The notes under the pieces are model-generated. The model had not been told where the DNA came from. It made no database searches and saw nothing but the letters and a program-made list of their open reading frames with translations. A stretch of DNA of 48,528 bases from contig SIBQ01000017.1 of the NCBI GenBank assembly GCA_009695095.1, forward strand, positions 1 through 48,528. The letters are read 5' to 3'. The position numbers and the translations under genes were made by a program. How positions within the stretch are numbered: position 1 is the stretch's first letter; every line of letters starts with the position of its first letter. This DNA comes from Lacunisphaera sp. (GTDB lineage Bacteria; Verrucomicrobiota; Verrucomicrobiia; Opitutales; Opitutaceae). Shown here in pieces: positions 6,002 to 27,422 of the stretch.

Positions 6002-6393
6002 GGTAGTGAGTAGGGGAAATATAGTGACACCCCATTCATGCCGTGTGCCCCAAGGCTCATGTCCTTTTTAAGTTAAAGGTGGGCGCCACCCGACGGATTT
6101 CTGCCTTCCGGTTTACGGCCTGGCATCAGCCCGCCTGTCAGCGGCTCCCAAATTATAGCAAAGGCAAAGAGCGGTTTATAGAGCACCTCGAACACTACAG
6201 GGTGACGGGGATGAAGCTACTCCGCCCGTCCCCGCCGTCAAACGCGAACTTCTGCGCCGAAATCTTCTGCTTGACATAGGGCACATTTCAAAACCTCCGG
6301 CCCTAGGAAAGGCCGGCGCTTGTCGCCGGCCGCAATCTGCGGGCAGGTCACGGCCTGCGATCAATCGGCAGCCCTACAGTTTCGAAATCAACC
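6002..6393. other. Spacer upstream of the small membrane gene
   Basis: About 390 bases without a convincing gene. It carries the family B palindromic element at 6304-6377. The frames present are short, lack ribosome sites and have no recognisable protein. Confidence 0.5.
6304..6377. repeat. Palindromic spacer element, family B copy 1
   Basis: GC-rich interrupted palindrome containing GGCCGGCGCTTGTCGCCGGCC and ending CGGCAGCCCTAC. In reverse complement it aligns along its whole length with 32461-32529, sharing CGGCAGCCCTACAG, a CACGGCCTG centre and the GCCGGCGCT arm. The outer GTAGGGC arm has decayed here to CTAGGAA. Confidence 0.8.
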
Positions 6394-20936: not shown

Positions 20937-22340
20937 ATGAAAAAGAAGCCGATCGCGTACCCTTATATTCCCAATTCCGTTCCAGCGGTCAAGGCGCAGA
21001 TGCTAAAGGAGGTCAGCGCCAGAGATATCATGGAGCTCTACAAGGAGATTCCTGAGAAGTTGAAGTTCAAGGGTCGGATGAATCTCCCGGAGCCAATTCT
21101 CGACGAGTATTCGATCCGGCGGCACGTTGAAGAGTTGTTGGACAAGAACGCCAACACCACCGACTACAACAGCTTCCTTGGAGCCGGGTGCGCTGATCAT
21201 TACGTACCCGCCGTATGTGATGAGATAAATGGGCGCGGCGAATTTCTCACCGCCTACGTCGGGGATTCATATGCGGACCACGGAAAGTGGCAGGCCCTGT
21301 TCGAGTACGCCAGTCTTATGGCCGAGTTGCTCGACATGGATATCCTGAGCTGCCCACTCTATGATGGCATGGCCGCGGCGGCCACTGCCTTGCGCATGGC
21401 GTCTCGGGCAGTTGGCCGGAAAAAGGTTCTGGTCGCCGGGAACATCAATCCAGACACCCTCTCGGTCATTCGTAATTATTTGAAGGGTATCGGTGAACCG
21501 CAGGTCGCCATCGAGCTGGTCAAATTCGATAAGAAATCAGGCCTGCTTAATCTTGCCGACCTCAAGGCAAAGATGACTCCAGGGATTGCGGCCGTGCTGA
21601 TCGAGAATCCCAACTATTTTGGTCTCATCGAAACTCAAGCGCAGCAAATCGGCAAGATTGCCAAGCAGGCTGGCGCTGCGTACGTGGTGAGCACAGATCC
21701 GATCTCGCTAGGTGTCGTTGCGCCACCCGCGCACTATGGCGCGACCATTGCATGCGGTGATCTCCACTCCCTCGGAATGCACCAAGCCTGCGGCAACGGC
21801 CAAGCTGGATTCGTCGCCACGTTCGATGATATGCGCTATGTCGCGGAGTTCAAGGATCTGATGTTCGGCCTCACCGAGACGCGCGTGGAAGGAGAATACG
21901 GGTTTGGCGAGGTGCTGTATGACCGCACCTCGTACGGTTCCCGTGAAAAGGGCAAGGAATTTACAGGCACCTCCACTGGGCTGTGGGCCATCACTGCGGG
22001 TGTTTACCTCTCGCTGATGGGCCCGAAAGGCATGGAAGAAATCGGCCAGGTTATCATGCAGAAACTCCAGTACGCCGGAAAGCTGATTGCACAAATACCC
22101 GGGGTAAAAGTAGTGCATGCCGGGCCCTCGTTTAAGGAGTTTGTGCTCAATTTCGATAATACCGGAAAGACCGTGAAGAAAATTAACAAGGCGCTGCTTA
22201 AATACAAAATTTTCGGTGGGAAAGATATTTCCACCGAGTTTCCTGAATATGGGCAGAGTGCCTTGTACTGCGTCACAGAGAAGAAGACCAAAGGCGACAT
22301 CGATAAGTTGGTGGCTGCTCTCAAAGCTGTAACCAAATAA
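20937..22340 (+). CDS. Divergent GcvPA-like PLP-fold protein (glycine dehydrogenase subunit 1 family)
   Basis: 467 aa, full length for the split P-protein N-half. Family features are FLGAGCADHYVPAV near 80, QALFEYASLMAELLDMD near 120, YDGMAAAATAL, and NPNYFGLIE. But where classic GcvPA has TAYTPYQPEISQG, this has TAYVGDSYADHGKW at about 105-118, so the loop facing the substrate site has changed. In the classic enzyme the A and B chains form one PLP unit that decarboxylates glycine and hands the aminomethyl group to lipoyl GcvH. No gcvT, gcvH or lpd is near. Strong ribosome site AGGAGA 6 bases before ATG. Base composition is lower in GC than neighbours, suggesting transfer. Confidence 0.88.
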   Translation: MKKKPIAYPYIPNSVPAVKAQMLKEVSARDIMELYKEIPEKLKFKGRMNLPEPILDEYSIRRHVEELLDKNANTTDYNSFLGAGCADHYVPAVCDEINGRGEFLTAYVGDSYADHGKWQALFEYASLMAELLDMDILSCPLYDGMAAAATALRMASRAVGRKKVLVAGNINPDTLSVIRNYLKGIGEPQVAIELVKFDKKSGLLNLADLKAKMTPGIAAVLIENPNYFGLIETQAQQIGKIAKQAGAAYVVSTDPISLGVVAPPAHYGATIACGDLHSLGMHQACGNGQAGFVATFDDMRYVAEFKDLMFGLTETRVEGEYGFGEVLYDRTSYGSREKGKEFTGTSTGLWAITAGVYLSLMGPKGMEEIGQVIMQKLQYAGKLIAQIPGVKVVHAGPSFKEFVLNFDNTGKTVKKINKALLKYKIFGGKDISTEFPEYGQSALYCVTEKKTKGDIDKLVAALKAVTK

Positions 22341-22404
22341 CTCCAGAGTCGCCGGCTAAAGAGCTGGCTCGTAGAACAAACAATAAAGGGAAGAAGCTTT
22401 CATT

Positions 22405-23967
22405 ATGGCCATGAATCAAAAAACCAAACTGCGGAAGTTTCATCAAGCGCGTTGGGACGAAGAGATCATCTTTGAAATGAGCGTGAAGGGTGAGCGGGGA
22501 ATACTTGTTCCCGCGGCCGAGTCCGATATCGTCGGCGCAATAGGCGATGGGGTGTCGGCCATCCCGGCAGGCCTCAGACGAAAGACGCCCGCGGCTTTAC
22601 CTGAAGTTAATCAGATGCGTGTCAACCGGCACTACATGAGGCTGTCGCAGGAAACTCTCGGGACGGATGTGAATATCGACATCAGCCAGGGCACATGCAC
22701 CATGAAATATAGCCCAAAGGTGCAGGAGCATCTGTGCGCGAGGAACCCGGGGATCACCGAGGTCCATCCGTTACAGGATCCCGACACCCTTCAGGGGATC
22801 TTGGAGATCTATTACAAGTTCGAGCAATTTCTCAAAGAAATCTCCGGGTTGGATTGCTTCAGCTTTCAGCCCGGCGGAGGAGCCCATGGCGTGTTTACGA
22901 ACGCCTCTATAGTACGGGCCTACCACGAATTGCGTGGCGATACTAAGCGCGACGAGGTTATCACCACCATGTTCTCGCATCCTTGTGACGCCGCCGGGCC
23001 TATGACCGCCGGATACAAAGTCATCACGCTGATGCCCGACGAAAATGGATATGCCAGCCTTGAGGCCTTGAAGGGAGCACTGTCTGAGCGCACAGCGGCG
23101 ATTTTCATCACGAACCCCGAAGATACCGGTATCTATAATCCTCGCATCGAGGAATACGTTCAGGCGGCTCATGCGGTCGGCGCGCTCTGCTCGTATGACC
23201 AGGCGAACGCTAACGGTATGCTGGGTATTGCGAGGGCAAAGGAGGCAGGCTTTGACCTATGCCATTTCAACTGCCACAAAACTTTTGCAACTCCTCATGC
23301 CTGCATGGGGCCCGCGATGGGGGCCATCGGTGTGCGTGAGGAATTGGCTCAATTTCTTCCAGTGCCCCGAGTCAAGTTCGACGGTTCTAAGTATCATCTC
23401 GACTATCACGCCCCTAACACCATTGGGCGCGTCCGCTCTTTCTACGGCAACGCCGCCATCGCCGTGCGCGGCTATGCTTGGATCATGCAACTTGGTGCCG
23501 ATGGACTCCGGGAGGTCGCCGAGATTTCTGTCCTTAACAACAATTACATGGAGAAAAAGCTTCGGGCGATCCCCGGGGTCAGCGTCTGGTATGCCGAGGG
23601 CAAACGCCGCTTGGAGCAGGTCCGGTATTCCTGGGAAAAACTCAAGGACGCCACGGGCGTGGGCACGGCAGACGTGATGCGCCGCATGGCCGATTACGGC
23701 TTGCAGCATTACTGGACCAGCCACCATCCGTGGGTGGTGCCCGAACCCTTTACTCTTGAGCCTTGCGAGTCCTATTCCAAGGACGACATTGACGAATATG
23801 TGGCGGTTCTGGCCCAGATTTCCAAGGAAGCGCACGAGAATCCAGAGTTCGTCAAGAATAGCCCCTACAATTTGCCCGTGCACAAGGTGCCCGCTCCTAG
23901 CATTGACGAGCCCGAACGGATCGCAGTCACGTGGCGCCAATATCTTAAGAAGAGAGGCAAGAGGTAA
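22405..23967 (+). CDS. Divergent GcvPB-like PLP enzyme (glycine dehydrogenase subunit 2 family)
   Basis: 520 aa, 64 bases after the GcvPA-like gene. The PLP lysine is conserved at about 292 in CHFNCHKTFATPH, and TCTMKYSPKVQEHL, PLQDPDTLQGILEI and YDQANANGMLG align with the family. Several signature loops differ from the classic form as I remember it: the AHGTNPASA loop is SHPCDAAGP (about 191-199), the glycine-rich GGGGPG after the lysine is ACMGPAMG, and NPNTLG is NPEDTG. So PLP binding looks intact but substrate handling may be new. Probably acts as a heterotetramer with the preceding protein. Confidence 0.88.
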   Translation: MAMNQKTKLRKFHQARWDEEIIFEMSVKGERGILVPAAESDIVGAIGDGVSAIPAGLRRKTPAALPEVNQMRVNRHYMRLSQETLGTDVNIDISQGTCTMKYSPKVQEHLCARNPGITEVHPLQDPDTLQGILEIYYKFEQFLKEISGLDCFSFQPGGGAHGVFTNASIVRAYHELRGDTKRDEVITTMFSHPCDAAGPMTAGYKVITLMPDENGYASLEALKGALSERTAAIFITNPEDTGIYNPRIEEYVQAAHAVGALCSYDQANANGMLGIARAKEAGFDLCHFNCHKTFATPHACMGPAMGAIGVREELAQFLPVPRVKFDGSKYHLDYHAPNTIGRVRSFYGNAAIAVRGYAWIMQLGADGLREVAEISVLNNNYMEKKLRAIPGVSVWYAEGKRRLEQVRYSWEKLKDATGVGTADVMRRMADYGLQHYWTSHHPWVVPEPFTLEPCESYSKDDIDEYVAVLAQISKEAHENPEFVKNSPYNLPVHKVPAPSIDEPERIAVTWRQYLKKRGKR

Positions 23968-24070
23968 ACACAATGCATTCGCAGATGTCATCCGAGCCTA
24001 CCCTCGCCAGGCAATGGGGAATGCCTGTGCCCTCGGTTTGTTTTAAGACTGCGGGTTTGGAGAATAACGC

Positions 24071-25189
24071 ATGATGAAACGGCTTGGGGTCATAGTGAAT
24101 CCCGTCGCGGGAATAGGTGGGCGTGTCGGGCTCAAAGGCAGTGATGGCAAAGAAATCCTGCAAAGAGCCATTGCTCTCGGCGCCAAATCTGAGTCCCCTA
24201 ATCGGGCCACTGAAGCGTTGAAAGCCGTGGCACAGATCAACGACGAAGTTGAAGTCCTGACCTACCCGGATGAAATGGGTGAGAATGAATGCAGAGCAGC
24301 TGGCATCGAACCGAGGGTGCTTGGATCCATCGTGAGTGGTCAGACATCGCCAGATGATACGATCCGTGCCGCCAAAGAATTGGTGAATAACGGCGCGAAG
24401 CTGATCATGTTCGCCGGTGGCGATGGAACCGCGCGGGACATCCACAACGCGGTTGGTGAATCGGTTCCGGTCCTCGGAATACCTGCGGGAGTCAAAATCC
24501 ACTCGGCAGTATATGCGATTACCGCACGCAGTGCCGGAGAAGTGGCGAGGATGTACCTAAGCGGCAGATTACTAAGCATAAAGATGGCCGAGGTCATGGA
24601 CATTGACGAGGACGCCTTTCGCTCTGGAGTCGTTACTTCGAAGCTCTATGGGTACTTGCGTGTGCCCGAAGAGTCACAATTGGTCCAAAATGCCAAGGCT
24701 GGCGGTATCCTTGCAGAAAAAGAAACTCTTCAGGGGATTGCTATGGAGATAGTAAACGCCATGGATGAGAGTACCTTCTATTTGATCGGACCGGGGACTA
24801 CAACCCGTACAATAATGGAAAAACTTGGATTGAAAAACACCCTCCTGGGCGTCGACATAGTTAGAAATAAGCAGTTAGTTGCGAATGATGTGACTGAGCA
24901 ACAAATACTAGAGACTATCCAATGTTTTAAGGCGCGGATTCTAGTCACTGTCATCGGTGGACAGGGGCACGTATTTGGCAGGGGAAACCAGCAACTAAGT
25001 CCTAGAGTAATTCGTTTAGTTGGAAAGCAACATATAGATATCATCGCCACGAAAGAGAAATTGGCTTCGTTGAGTGGGCGTCCGCTGTTAATGGATACTG
25101 GAGATGAAGTCTTGAATAAACTGCTGGGTGGCTATGCCAAGGTCTTGAGCGGGTATAAGGAATTCACGATGTACCCGGTTGGATCATGA
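24071..25189 (+). CDS. ATP-NAD kinase/AcoX-like protein (COG3199 type)
   Basis: 372 aa. The N-terminus RLGVIVNPVAGIGGRVGLKGSDG and the FAGGDGTARD motif near 120 are those of the NAD-kinase/diacylglycerol-kinase fold; GIPAGVKIHSAVYAITARSAGE is characteristic of the AcoX-like branch, whose true substrate is unsettled. It probably phosphorylates a nucleotide-like or small hydroxylated molecule. Ribosome site GGAG at 24059-24062; ATG 24071 or 24074. It is third in the low-GC run, 103 bases after gcvPB-like, with an imperfect hairpin (CAGGCAATGGGGAATGCCTG) between. Its linkage suggests it works in the same pathway. Confidence 0.85.
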   Translation: MMKRLGVIVNPVAGIGGRVGLKGSDGKEILQRAIALGAKSESPNRATEALKAVAQINDEVEVLTYPDEMGENECRAAGIEPRVLGSIVSGQTSPDDTIRAAKELVNNGAKLIMFAGGDGTARDIHNAVGESVPVLGIPAGVKIHSAVYAITARSAGEVARMYLSGRLLSIKMAEVMDIDEDAFRSGVVTSKLYGYLRVPEESQLVQNAKAGGILAEKETLQGIAMEIVNAMDESTFYLIGPGTTTRTIMEKLGLKNTLLGVDIVRNKQLVANDVTEQQILETIQCFKARILVTVIGGQGHVFGRGNQQLSPRVIRLVGKQHIDIIATKEKLASLSGRPLLMDTGDEVLNKLLGGYAKVLSGYKEFTMYPVGS

Positions 25190-25632: not shown

Positions 25633-25727
25633 AGAGGCAATTCGGCTTACGGGTAGCTTGTAAACATCACTAGCCCACCGCCTTCATTCTTGCGTCGGTC
25701 GGGAAGCCCGTGCATCTTAGCGGGTGC

Positions 25728-27422
25728 ATGTCGCAGAACTTCGCGCGCCTGGTCTTTGCCTTCACGCTCCTGTTCTTCTGCGCCTTCTTCCTCTGGCCGA
25801 TCCTGCAGATCCTGAAGGGCGGGTTCATCGACGCGGACGGCAAGCTGACGTTCGCCTACCTCGCCTCCCTGCTCACCGACACGATATACTTGGGCGGCCT
25901 GGCCAACTCCTTCCTGCTCGCGCTCACGACTACGACGTTCGCGCTGCTCATCGCGATGCCACTGGCGTTTGTGTCGGACAGGTTTTTGTTTCCGCTCAAG
26001 GGATTTCTCGGCTCATTCATCTTGGTGCCGATGATCCTGCCGCCGTTTGTCGGCGCCATCGGCATCAAGCAGATCCTCGGGCAATATGGCGCGCTCAACG
26101 CCTGCATCATCGACCTCGGCCTGCGGCCGGAGGGGTGGACTTTCGACTGGCTTGGCGCCAACCAGTTTCTCGGCATCGCCCTGGTCAACGCTTTCAGCCT
26201 CTACCCCATCATCTACCTGAACGCCGTCGCGGCACTCGCCAACATCGACCCAGCCATGGAGGAGGCGGCGGAAAACCTCGGCTGCACCGGATTCCGCAAA
26301 TTTTTCAAGATCACCCTGCCGCTTATCAAGTCCGGCCTCTTCGCCGGCGGCACCATCGTGTTCATCTGGGCGTTCACCGACCTCGGCGTGCCGCTCATCT
26401 TTGACTACTCACGCGTCACCTCAGTGCAGATTTTCTACGGCTTGAAGGATATCGGCGGCAACCCGTTCCCCTACGCGCTCGTCGCCGTGATGCTGTTCAG
26501 CTCGGTGCTGTTCTACGCGATCGGCAAGGGATTGTTCGGCCGCGATTCCTACGCCATGATGGCCAAGGCCACGTCGTCCGGCGGTCCGGGGGAGCTCCCG
26601 CACGGCCGCGCCTGGCTGTGCACCGCGCTGTTCGCCACGGTCACCTTCATCGCCATCCTGCCGCACATCGGCGTGGTGCTCGTGGCCTTCTCCAGCGACT
26701 GGTATGCCACCGTCCTGCCGCGCCACTTCAACCTGCACAATTTCGAGATGGCACTCGGCCACGACCTCACCCTGCCGGCCATTGCTAACAGCCTCAAATA
26801 CGCCAGCATTTCGACGGTCATCGACCTGGTTGTCGGCATCGCGCTGGCCTACGTCATTGTCCGCTCGAAGATCGTCGGCCGGCAGATCCTCGACTTTCTC
26901 GCGATGATGCCGCTCGCCGTGCCCGGCCTTGTGCTGGCCTTCGGCTATCTTGCCATGAGTCAGGATGGAAAACTTTTCTCGTTCCTCAATCCCGTGCGCG
27001 ACCCGACCGTCCTGCTCATCATCGCCTATTCCATCCGCCGGCTGCCCTACGTGGTGCGCTCGGCGGCGGCCGGCTTCCAGCAGACCAGCGAGACTCTCGA
27101 GGAGGCTGCGCAAAACCTCGGCTGCCCGCCGCTCAAGGCTGTGTTCAAGGTCACGCTACCGCTCATTATGGCCAACCTGATCGCCGGCGGGCTGCTCGCG
27201 TTCTCCTTTGCCATGCTCGAGGTGTCCGACTCGCTCGTGCTTGCGCAGAAGCAGTTCTATTACCCGATCACCAAGGCTATCTACGAACTCTTCCAACTGC
27301 TCGGCGACGGCAAGTATATCGCCTCGGCGCTCGGCGTGTGGGCGATGGCCTTCCTCGGCATCACCATCGCCGGTATGACCATCCTCCTCGGCAAGAAGCT
27401 CGGGGCGATCTTTCGCGTGTAG
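25728..27422 (+). CDS. ABC transporter permease, FbpB/AfuB-type (iron(III)-like), two fused domains
   Basis: 564 aa from ATG 25728 (MSQNFARLVFAFTLLFF). About twelve membrane segments in two homologous halves, each with an EAA loop: EEAAENLGCTGFRKFFKITL near 175 and EEAAQNLGCPPLKAVFKVTL near 460. Two-domain permeases of this form serve Fe3+ and similar periplasmic binding-protein importers. No binding protein or ATPase lies upstream or downstream; instead a dead transposase and the low-GC island are upstream. There is no clear ribosome site before the ATG. It may have lost its operon partners or its expression. Confidence 0.88.
   Translation: MSQNFARLVFAFTLLFFCAFFLWPILQILKGGFIDADGKLTFAYLASLLTDTIYLGGLANSFLLALTTTTFALLIAMPLAFVSDRFLFPLKGFLGSFILVPMILPPFVGAIGIKQILGQYGALNACIIDLGLRPEGWTFDWLGANQFLGIALVNAFSLYPIIYLNAVAALANIDPAMEEAAENLGCTGFRKFFKITLPLIKSGLFAGGTIVFIWAFTDLGVPLIFDYSRVTSVQIFYGLKDIGGNPFPYALVAVMLFSSVLFYAIGKGLFGRDSYAMMAKATSSGGPGELPHGRAWLCTALFATVTFIAILPHIGVVLVAFSSDWYATVLPRHFNLHNFEMALGHDLTLPAIANSLKYASISTVIDLVVGIALAYVIVRSKIVGRQILDFLAMMPLAVPGLVLAFGYLAMSQDGKLFSFLNPVRDPTVLLIIAYSIRRLPYVVRSAAAGFQQTSETLEEAAQNLGCPPLKAVFKVTLPLIMANLIAGGLLAFSFAMLEVSDSLVLAQKQFYYPITKAIYELFQLLGDGKYIASALGVWAMAFLGITIAGMTILLGKKLGAIFRV

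Follow-up and report, generated by a model that had tools for sequence, protein, structure and literature searches.

The closest described relatives of the genes reported here are GcvPA and GcvPB, the two subunits of the glycine cleavage P-protein, represented by the Thermus structure 1wyt. We analysed 48,528 nucleotides of Lacunisphaera sp. (assembly GCA_009695095.1, contig SIBQ01000017.1, positions 1 to 48,528 of the forward strand; hereafter the window), which carry a cassette of three genes for a divergent GcvPA-like subunit (PA), a divergent GcvPB-like subunit (PB) of the pyridoxal 5'-phosphate (PLP)-binding type, and a protein of the ATP-NAD kinase family. PA and PB are homologous to the Thermus subunits over nearly their full lengths (1wyt_A, E 1e-59; 1wyt_B, E 1.5e-86) and share with them the positions of the PLP lysine, D265 and H192; they differ in forming a clade of their own, in their loops and active-site residues, in their kinase partner, and in that genes for T and H proteins are unlinked in 48 of 49 loci. 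The proteins named 'ATP-NAD kinase family protein' by NCBI that are encoded beside EpmC or archaeal gcv genes belong to the same family as the window kinase (43-52% identity for most best matches), but no divergent P pair lies beside them. The window kinase also shares the Pfam domains NAD_kinase, NAD_kinase_C and DAGK_cat and the GGDG motif with the NAD kinase/diacylglycerol kinase superfamily, with weak fold matches. A similar logic of kinase plus PLP decarboxylase is known from PduX or BluE with CobD or CobC; the likeness is one of logic, and the PLP partner in the cassette is P-protein-like. In the available text of the sources, BluE and PduX are threonine kinases (PMC6249242), and only a classic gcv operon appears for Thermacetogenium phaeum (PMC12674515).

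A single scan of a collection of genomes from 84,980 species returned 36 loci, 35 of which hold close relatives of the pair (56-81% identity), while the last (L039, 36%) is a classic-type gcvPB. In the PB tree, restricted to proteins of 440-600 aa, all 54 divergent rows formed one clade apart from the 26 classic rows (support 100/100). Divergent pairs were found in Desulfobacterota, Bacillota, Synergistota, Nitrososphaerota, Pseudomonadota, Actinomycetota and on one haloarchaeal plasmid. The 35 divergent loci belong to 34 host genomes (L015 and L008 share one), across which the PF02347 scores split in two, with classic GcvPA at about 360-610 bits (31 of 34 genomes) and full-length divergent proteins at about 140-215 bits. 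Two or three divergent pairs are present in ten of the 34, and hosts with a complete classic set retain the divergent pair too.

For the residue comparison, 68 divergent and 34 classic PB and 63 divergent and 35 classic PA proteins were aligned, with three full-length P-proteins in each classic set; PB proteins below 430 aa, PA proteins below 420 aa, duplicates, and proteins above 740 aa that were not full-length classic P-proteins were removed (an earlier alignment of the loops had kept 440-570 aa for PB and 420-510 aa for PA). K292, D265 and H192 of PB are invariant in divergent (68/68) and classic (34/34) proteins alike; we take D265 to be the N1-type aspartate and H192 the stacking-type histidine. 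Seven further PB residues are each fixed in 68/68 divergent proteins, namely T97 (classic S), D240 (T), W359 (Y/F), R402 (mixed), R407 (V/I), S439 (mixed) and H440 (Y/S). Only R402 among the seven occurs in classic rows (5/34), and D240, R407 and H440 occur in 0/34. Position 239 of PB (E239 in the window) is E or D in 67/68. In PA, D114 is present in 62/63 divergent proteins and replaced by S or A in 35/35 classic ones; position 341 is E or D in 63/63 versus S, and G344 is found in 63/63 versus C/T. Tested against the classic signature, PB T97, D240, W359, R407 and H440 and PA D114, E/D341 and G344 are unlike all or nearly all classic rows; positions that do not vary among the classic proteins, be they archaeal or full-length bacterial P-proteins, are constant as other residues in the divergent pair. 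By homology to 1wyt and to fold-type-I PLP enzymes, we infer that the switched positions line the active site, and the occurrence of D240, R402, R407 and H440 without exception speaks for a single chemistry throughout the clade. On sequence grounds, the pair constitutes a distinct clade in which the PLP machinery is kept and the loops are replaced.

In this respect the preliminary description of the locus, made from its letters only, holds: the pair does not fall within the classic clade and its active sites are not identical to the classic ones. In profile searches against the GcvPA and GcvPB families, both proteins pass the NCBIfam equivalog cut-offs (PA, 450.3 versus 364 bits for GcvPA; PB, 547.2 versus 441 bits for GcvPB). 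The Pfam scores were 184 bits for PA (GDC-P) and 46 bits for PB (GcvP2_C). Seven annotated plasmids label the pair GcvPA/GcvPB; the kinase gene comes first in six of these and lies elsewhere on the plasmid in Natronosalvus. The naming by NCBI models is probably a functional misannotation.

The kinase gene is present in 41 of the 49 divergent-pair loci (35 from the scan, 13 further stretches and the window), in 37 of them at a distance of at most 400 nt and on the same strand. This is more than chance, and the kinase is co-inherited with the divergent pair. The window kinase scored 68.5 bits for NAD_kinase (cut-off 25.5) and 56.9 bits for NAD_kinase_C, and DAGK_cat was also matched; no NCBIfam family was matched, so that no function is given by these models. 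In Foldseek, a structure model of fair quality (pLDDT 85.4, pTM 0.62) resembled kinases of the DgkB type and the NADH kinase of yeast weakly (best E 2.4e-4, TM-score about 0.25-0.32) and gave no substrate hint.

The kinase family extends beyond the cassette. Among 398 genomes of the Clostridium ultunense phylum, 23 carry it, and a divergent P gene adjoins it in 20 of 29 loci; in three Clostridia (L154, L155 and Peptoclostridium L096, 10001-12077) a HisC/CobD-like PLP enzyme that scores under both NCBIfam cut-offs is encoded directly 3' of the kinase. In the archaeal phylum of Nitrososphaerales genome G063 the kinase was found in 97 of 250 genomes, and GcvP was present in 70 of these 97 versus 21 of the 153 others (Fisher p 6e-21, kinship ignored). 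Nine of the 20 archaeal loci first sampled, which were chosen from the 97 matches blind to their neighbours, have the kinase within 2.5 kb of gcv genes; overall the number is 17 of 34, part of the 15 later loci having been chosen for GcvPA proximity. Two of these (L226 and L227) show the order GcvH, serine hydroxymethyltransferase (SHMT), kinase, GcvT, GcvPA, GcvPB and a lipoamide-dehydrogenase-like gene on mixed strands (SHMT and dehydrogenase tested in L226 only), and SHMT is present in the clusters L225 and L226. Other archaeal kinase genes adjoin the isoleucyl-tRNA synthetase gene, which may be inherited synteny. In the phylum of Oceanimonas, 38 of 398 genomes carry the kinase. In gammaproteobacteria (L098, 7430-9122; L101-L129) an EpmC-like gene adjoins it in 14 of 30 loci fetched, with EpmC, the hydroxylase of elongation factor P (EF-P), confirmed by Pfam in two. 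In a kinase tree obtained by a quick method, the 9 rows of the EpmC group form one clade and the 3 rows of the HisC/CobD group another, and the EpmC-group kinases are placed beside those of the cassette.

A link to glycine was found upstream of some cassettes. The Rfam search covered 54 stretches, of which 53 contain genes of the pair, including the window, and one (L223) does not extend over its pair; L005, L007, L016, L017, L023, L031, L036, L083, L084, L086 and the plasmid loci L089-L095 and L099 were excluded, and for L014 only 257 nt 5' of PA were available. In nine of the 54, all of them from Bacillota, glycine riboswitch aptamers precede the cassette and share its strand: L011, L013, L026, L027 and L035, and four loci from the search of the Clostridium ultunense phylum (L209, L210, L217, L218). 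The single aptamer of L217 stands about 770 nt 5', close to where the contig ends; the PA frame that would lie between the aptamer and PB of L218 was not called. In L011, L026 and L035 the last aptamer overlaps at its 3' end with a terminator-like hairpin, the layout of a glycine-ON switch as for gcvT; on this basis glycine is predicted to turn the cassette on in some Clostridia. Together with the archaeal kinase relatives beside classic gcv genes, the riboswitches tie a part of this family to glycine. The only other glycine aptamer cluster found is a second tandem set in L011 (15463-15893), before a pyridine-nucleotide oxidoreductase gene.

Our preferred reading, which we hold tentatively, is that PA-PB is a glycine-linked PLP enzyme distinct from classic glycine cleavage that uses another acceptor, the kinase acting on a partner metabolite. 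The pair would descend from the glycine cleavage P-protein and no longer be an ordinary glycine decarboxylase. It may bind a small amino acid as an external aldimine, most probably glycine or a directly glycine-linked compound, and generate a PLP-stabilised carbanion through decarboxylation or deprotonation; the carbanion would react with, or pass to, an acceptor other than a dedicated lipoyl-H/T chain, and phosphorylation of the partner metabolite or product by the kinase could pull the reaction forward. This reading is based on the separate clade, the fixed switches, the kinase linkage, the riboswitches, the neighbouring amino-acid permeases and the archaeal co-occurrence of kinase and GcvP. 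It is also supported by three hosts (G058, G079, G081) in which every GcvPA is of the divergent kind and a convincing GcvH is absent; two of them have no GcvH match at all and G058 has one of 22 bits. Riboswitch locus L027 belongs to G079. A more specific version, i.e. a second glycine-consuming pathway separate from the glycine cleavage system, in which a neofunctionalised P heterodimer joins the PLP-bound glycine carbanion with, or passes it to, a partner other than a lipoyl protein and a dedicated kinase, from a family that also serves classic archaeal glycine cleavage, supplies a phosphorylated intermediate, is somewhat unlikely.

The interpretation in the preliminary description, a different reaction on an amino acid other than glycine, is retained as to the separate and rebuilt clade, the recurring kinase and the finding of GcvH in 1 of 49 loci; the exclusion of glycine is not supported, in view of the riboswitches in nine stretches and the archaeal kinases beside classic gcv genes.

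Several observations weigh against our preferred reading. The other 45 stretches, including the window, lack a glycine riboswitch at the gathering score, and five of these are empty at a permissive threshold as well; no terminator was seen in L013 and L027 in a scan of L011, L013, L026, L027 and L035. GcvH (E <1e-20) is encoded somewhere in 31 of the 34 host genomes, so that the pair could use that GcvH, and in Thermincola (L026) a lipoyl-type GcvH gene lies 3' of the cassette on the same strand. The three hosts without GcvH are metagenome-assembled genomes of unknown completeness, which makes gene absence weak evidence. The transporters and regulators beside the cassette vary, which allows for several substrates, and substrate contact by the switched residues is a prediction from homology.

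Part of this evidence would fit an alternative P-protein isoform, changed in kinetics, direction or regulation, that still loads an aminomethyl group onto the lipoyl-GcvH of the host, the kinase being a general accessory of glycine cleavage; we consider this unlikely. Such an isoform would account for the scores of PA and PB above the NCBIfam cut-offs, the glycine riboswitches, the GcvH of Thermincola and of the 31 hosts, and the archaeal kinases near classic gcv genes. It is difficult to reconcile with the fixation of classic-constant positions to other residues, with the retention of the divergent pair even beside a complete classic set, with the three hosts lacking both GcvH and classic P, and with the linkage of GcvH at Thermincola only. 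There the gene order on one strand is cassette, permease, MFS transporter, DUF436, candidate PdxS, a small protein and GcvH; the gene is taken for PdxS from its N-terminal start. On the window contig there is no match to GCV_H or GCV_T (Lpd was not searched for), in agreement with the preliminary description of a locus without T and H proteins. The host genome G000 (2.14 Mb, 91.5% complete) encodes one full-length classic GcvP (987 aa) on another contig and no GCV_H at the cut-off; strong GcvH matches are present in 18 of 20 same-genus relatives, so the gap may reflect incompleteness. Contig C28 of G000 (L042) has a long open reading frame that includes a GcvT domain; its N-terminal part appears FAD-oxidoreductase-like, and the product is perhaps a dimethylglycine- or sarcosine-dehydrogenase-type enzyme.

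More doubtful still is an order in which the kinase acts first, making O-phospho-serine or -threonine that PA-PB then decarboxylates, as in the logic of PduX/BluE with CobD/CobC. The HisC/CobD-like enzymes directly after the kinase in three Clostridia, SHMT in L225 and L226, a metallophosphoesterase at seven cassette loci and the new invariant R402, R407 and H440 of PB would suit it; set against this are the scores of these enzymes under both cut-offs, riboswitches that sense glycine and not threonine or serine, and the weak fold matches of the kinase. The annotation of the Peptoclostridium stretch names no gene for cobamides.

A decarboxylase or transferase for an amino acid other than glycine is the least probable of these alternatives, even with acidic residues that are constant close to the catalytic motifs (PB D240 and E/D239; PA E/D341 and D114), a family-3 binding protein and ABC permeases beside the Oceanimonas cassette, varied transporters elsewhere, and two or three pairs in 10 of 34 hosts: the riboswitches and the archaeal kinases tie the family to glycine, and with D240, R407 and H440 in 68/68 no separate active-site class is seen. 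Lysine or hydroxylysine chemistry, hinted at by the EpmC neighbours and the Oceanimonas transporter, was set aside and is kept only within this alternative. Ordinary GcvPA/GcvPB as a full description is ruled out by the tree and the residue switches.

The trio may point to a branch of glycine metabolism that is as yet undescribed. If a separate glycine route is confirmed, the cassette adds a reaction to the core one-carbon node. The kinase gains a testable link to glycine metabolism. As NCBI models name the pair glycine dehydrogenase subunits, genome-based claims about the reductive glycine pathway or glycine cleavage may rest on miscounted genes. In the open-licence literature (titles and abstracts; subscription papers outside the scope) no paper on the pairing of the divergent P pair with the kinase was recognised, and no relevant title was found for AcoX, for ATP-NAD kinase with gcv, or for COG3199.

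The features of the island are summarized in Table 1. The preliminary description of three plus-strand genes in a lower-GC stretch, with the PLP lysine of the second protein kept, the loops changed and an NAD-kinase-type GGDG motif in the third, agrees with the open reading frames, alignments and Pfam matches.

Table 1. Features of the PA-PB-kinase island in the window
Feature	Coordinates	Strand	Evidence
Divergent GcvPA-like subunit (PA), 467 aa	20937..22340	+	ORF, Pfam, NCBIfam, structure-template and alignment matches
Divergent GcvPB-like PLP-binding subunit (PB), 520 aa	22405..23967	+	ORF, Pfam, NCBIfam, structure-template match, tree, alignment
ATP-NAD-kinase-family protein, 372 aa, GGDG at residues 116-119	24071..25189	+	ORF, Pfam, tree, model
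PA loop TAYVGDSYADHGKW, residues 105-118, replacing the classic TAYTPYQPE-type loop	21249..21290	+	alignment
PB loop SHPCDAAGP, residues 191-199, replacing AHGTNPAS	22975..23001	+	alignment
Codon of PLP lysine K292 of PB	23278..23280	+	alignment
PB loop ACMGPAMG, residues 299-306, replacing the glycine-rich GGGGPG loop	23299..23322	+	alignment

The genes are separated by 64 nt (PA-PB) and 103 nt (PB-kinase), with a purine-rich stretch 5' of all three starts, and the GC content of the island is 0.535 versus 0.625 in the remaining window. The closest relatives of the window PB are those of Desulfospira (about 80% identity) and another member of the Desulfobacteraceae (grouping 100/90 in the PB tree); the window kinase clusters with those of the same hosts and two more. 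The kinase was found in none of 56 relatives of the host genome at E 1e-3. Because of its foreign composition, its Desulfobacteraceae kin and the absence of the kinase from these relatives, the trio is read as a horizontally acquired cassette that was transferred as a unit. No direct repeats that would mark mobile-element ends were found flanking the island.

Recurring neighbours of the cassette, in clusters named from one or two representatives each, comprise APC permeases, SDR oxidoreductases (10 loci), sigma-54 regulators (8) and a metallophosphoesterase (7); on the Gemmobacter plasmid there are, in addition, an acyl-CoA synthetase gene and one for a copper amine oxidase. These neighbours point to amino-acid metabolism, with no single substrate fixed. 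A DUF436/TIGR01440 (YwlG-type) protein is encoded in nine cassette loci (L004, L011, L012, L026, L029-L032, L037), and in Synergistota (L029-L031) the gene of a B12-type radical SAM protein separates the pair from the kinase/DUF436 genes. A screen in S. aureus suggested PLP binding by YwlG, according to the available text (PMC6522883); a role of DUF436/YwlG in EF-P modification or PLP supply was set aside, the available parts of the sources being suggestive only (PMC5885033, PMC9522360, PMC6522883).

The first gene 3' of the island (25710-27422) encodes a 570-aa fused ABC permease and is followed by a gene for an EamA-type transporter. The permease was rejected as part of the cassette (PhnU2, 154.6 versus a cut-off of 593; host-like GC content of 0.619; no relative in the other clustered loci). 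The RNA-family search also located a 6S RNA (6025-6206) and a tRNA gene (4-75) in the window, both on the minus strand.

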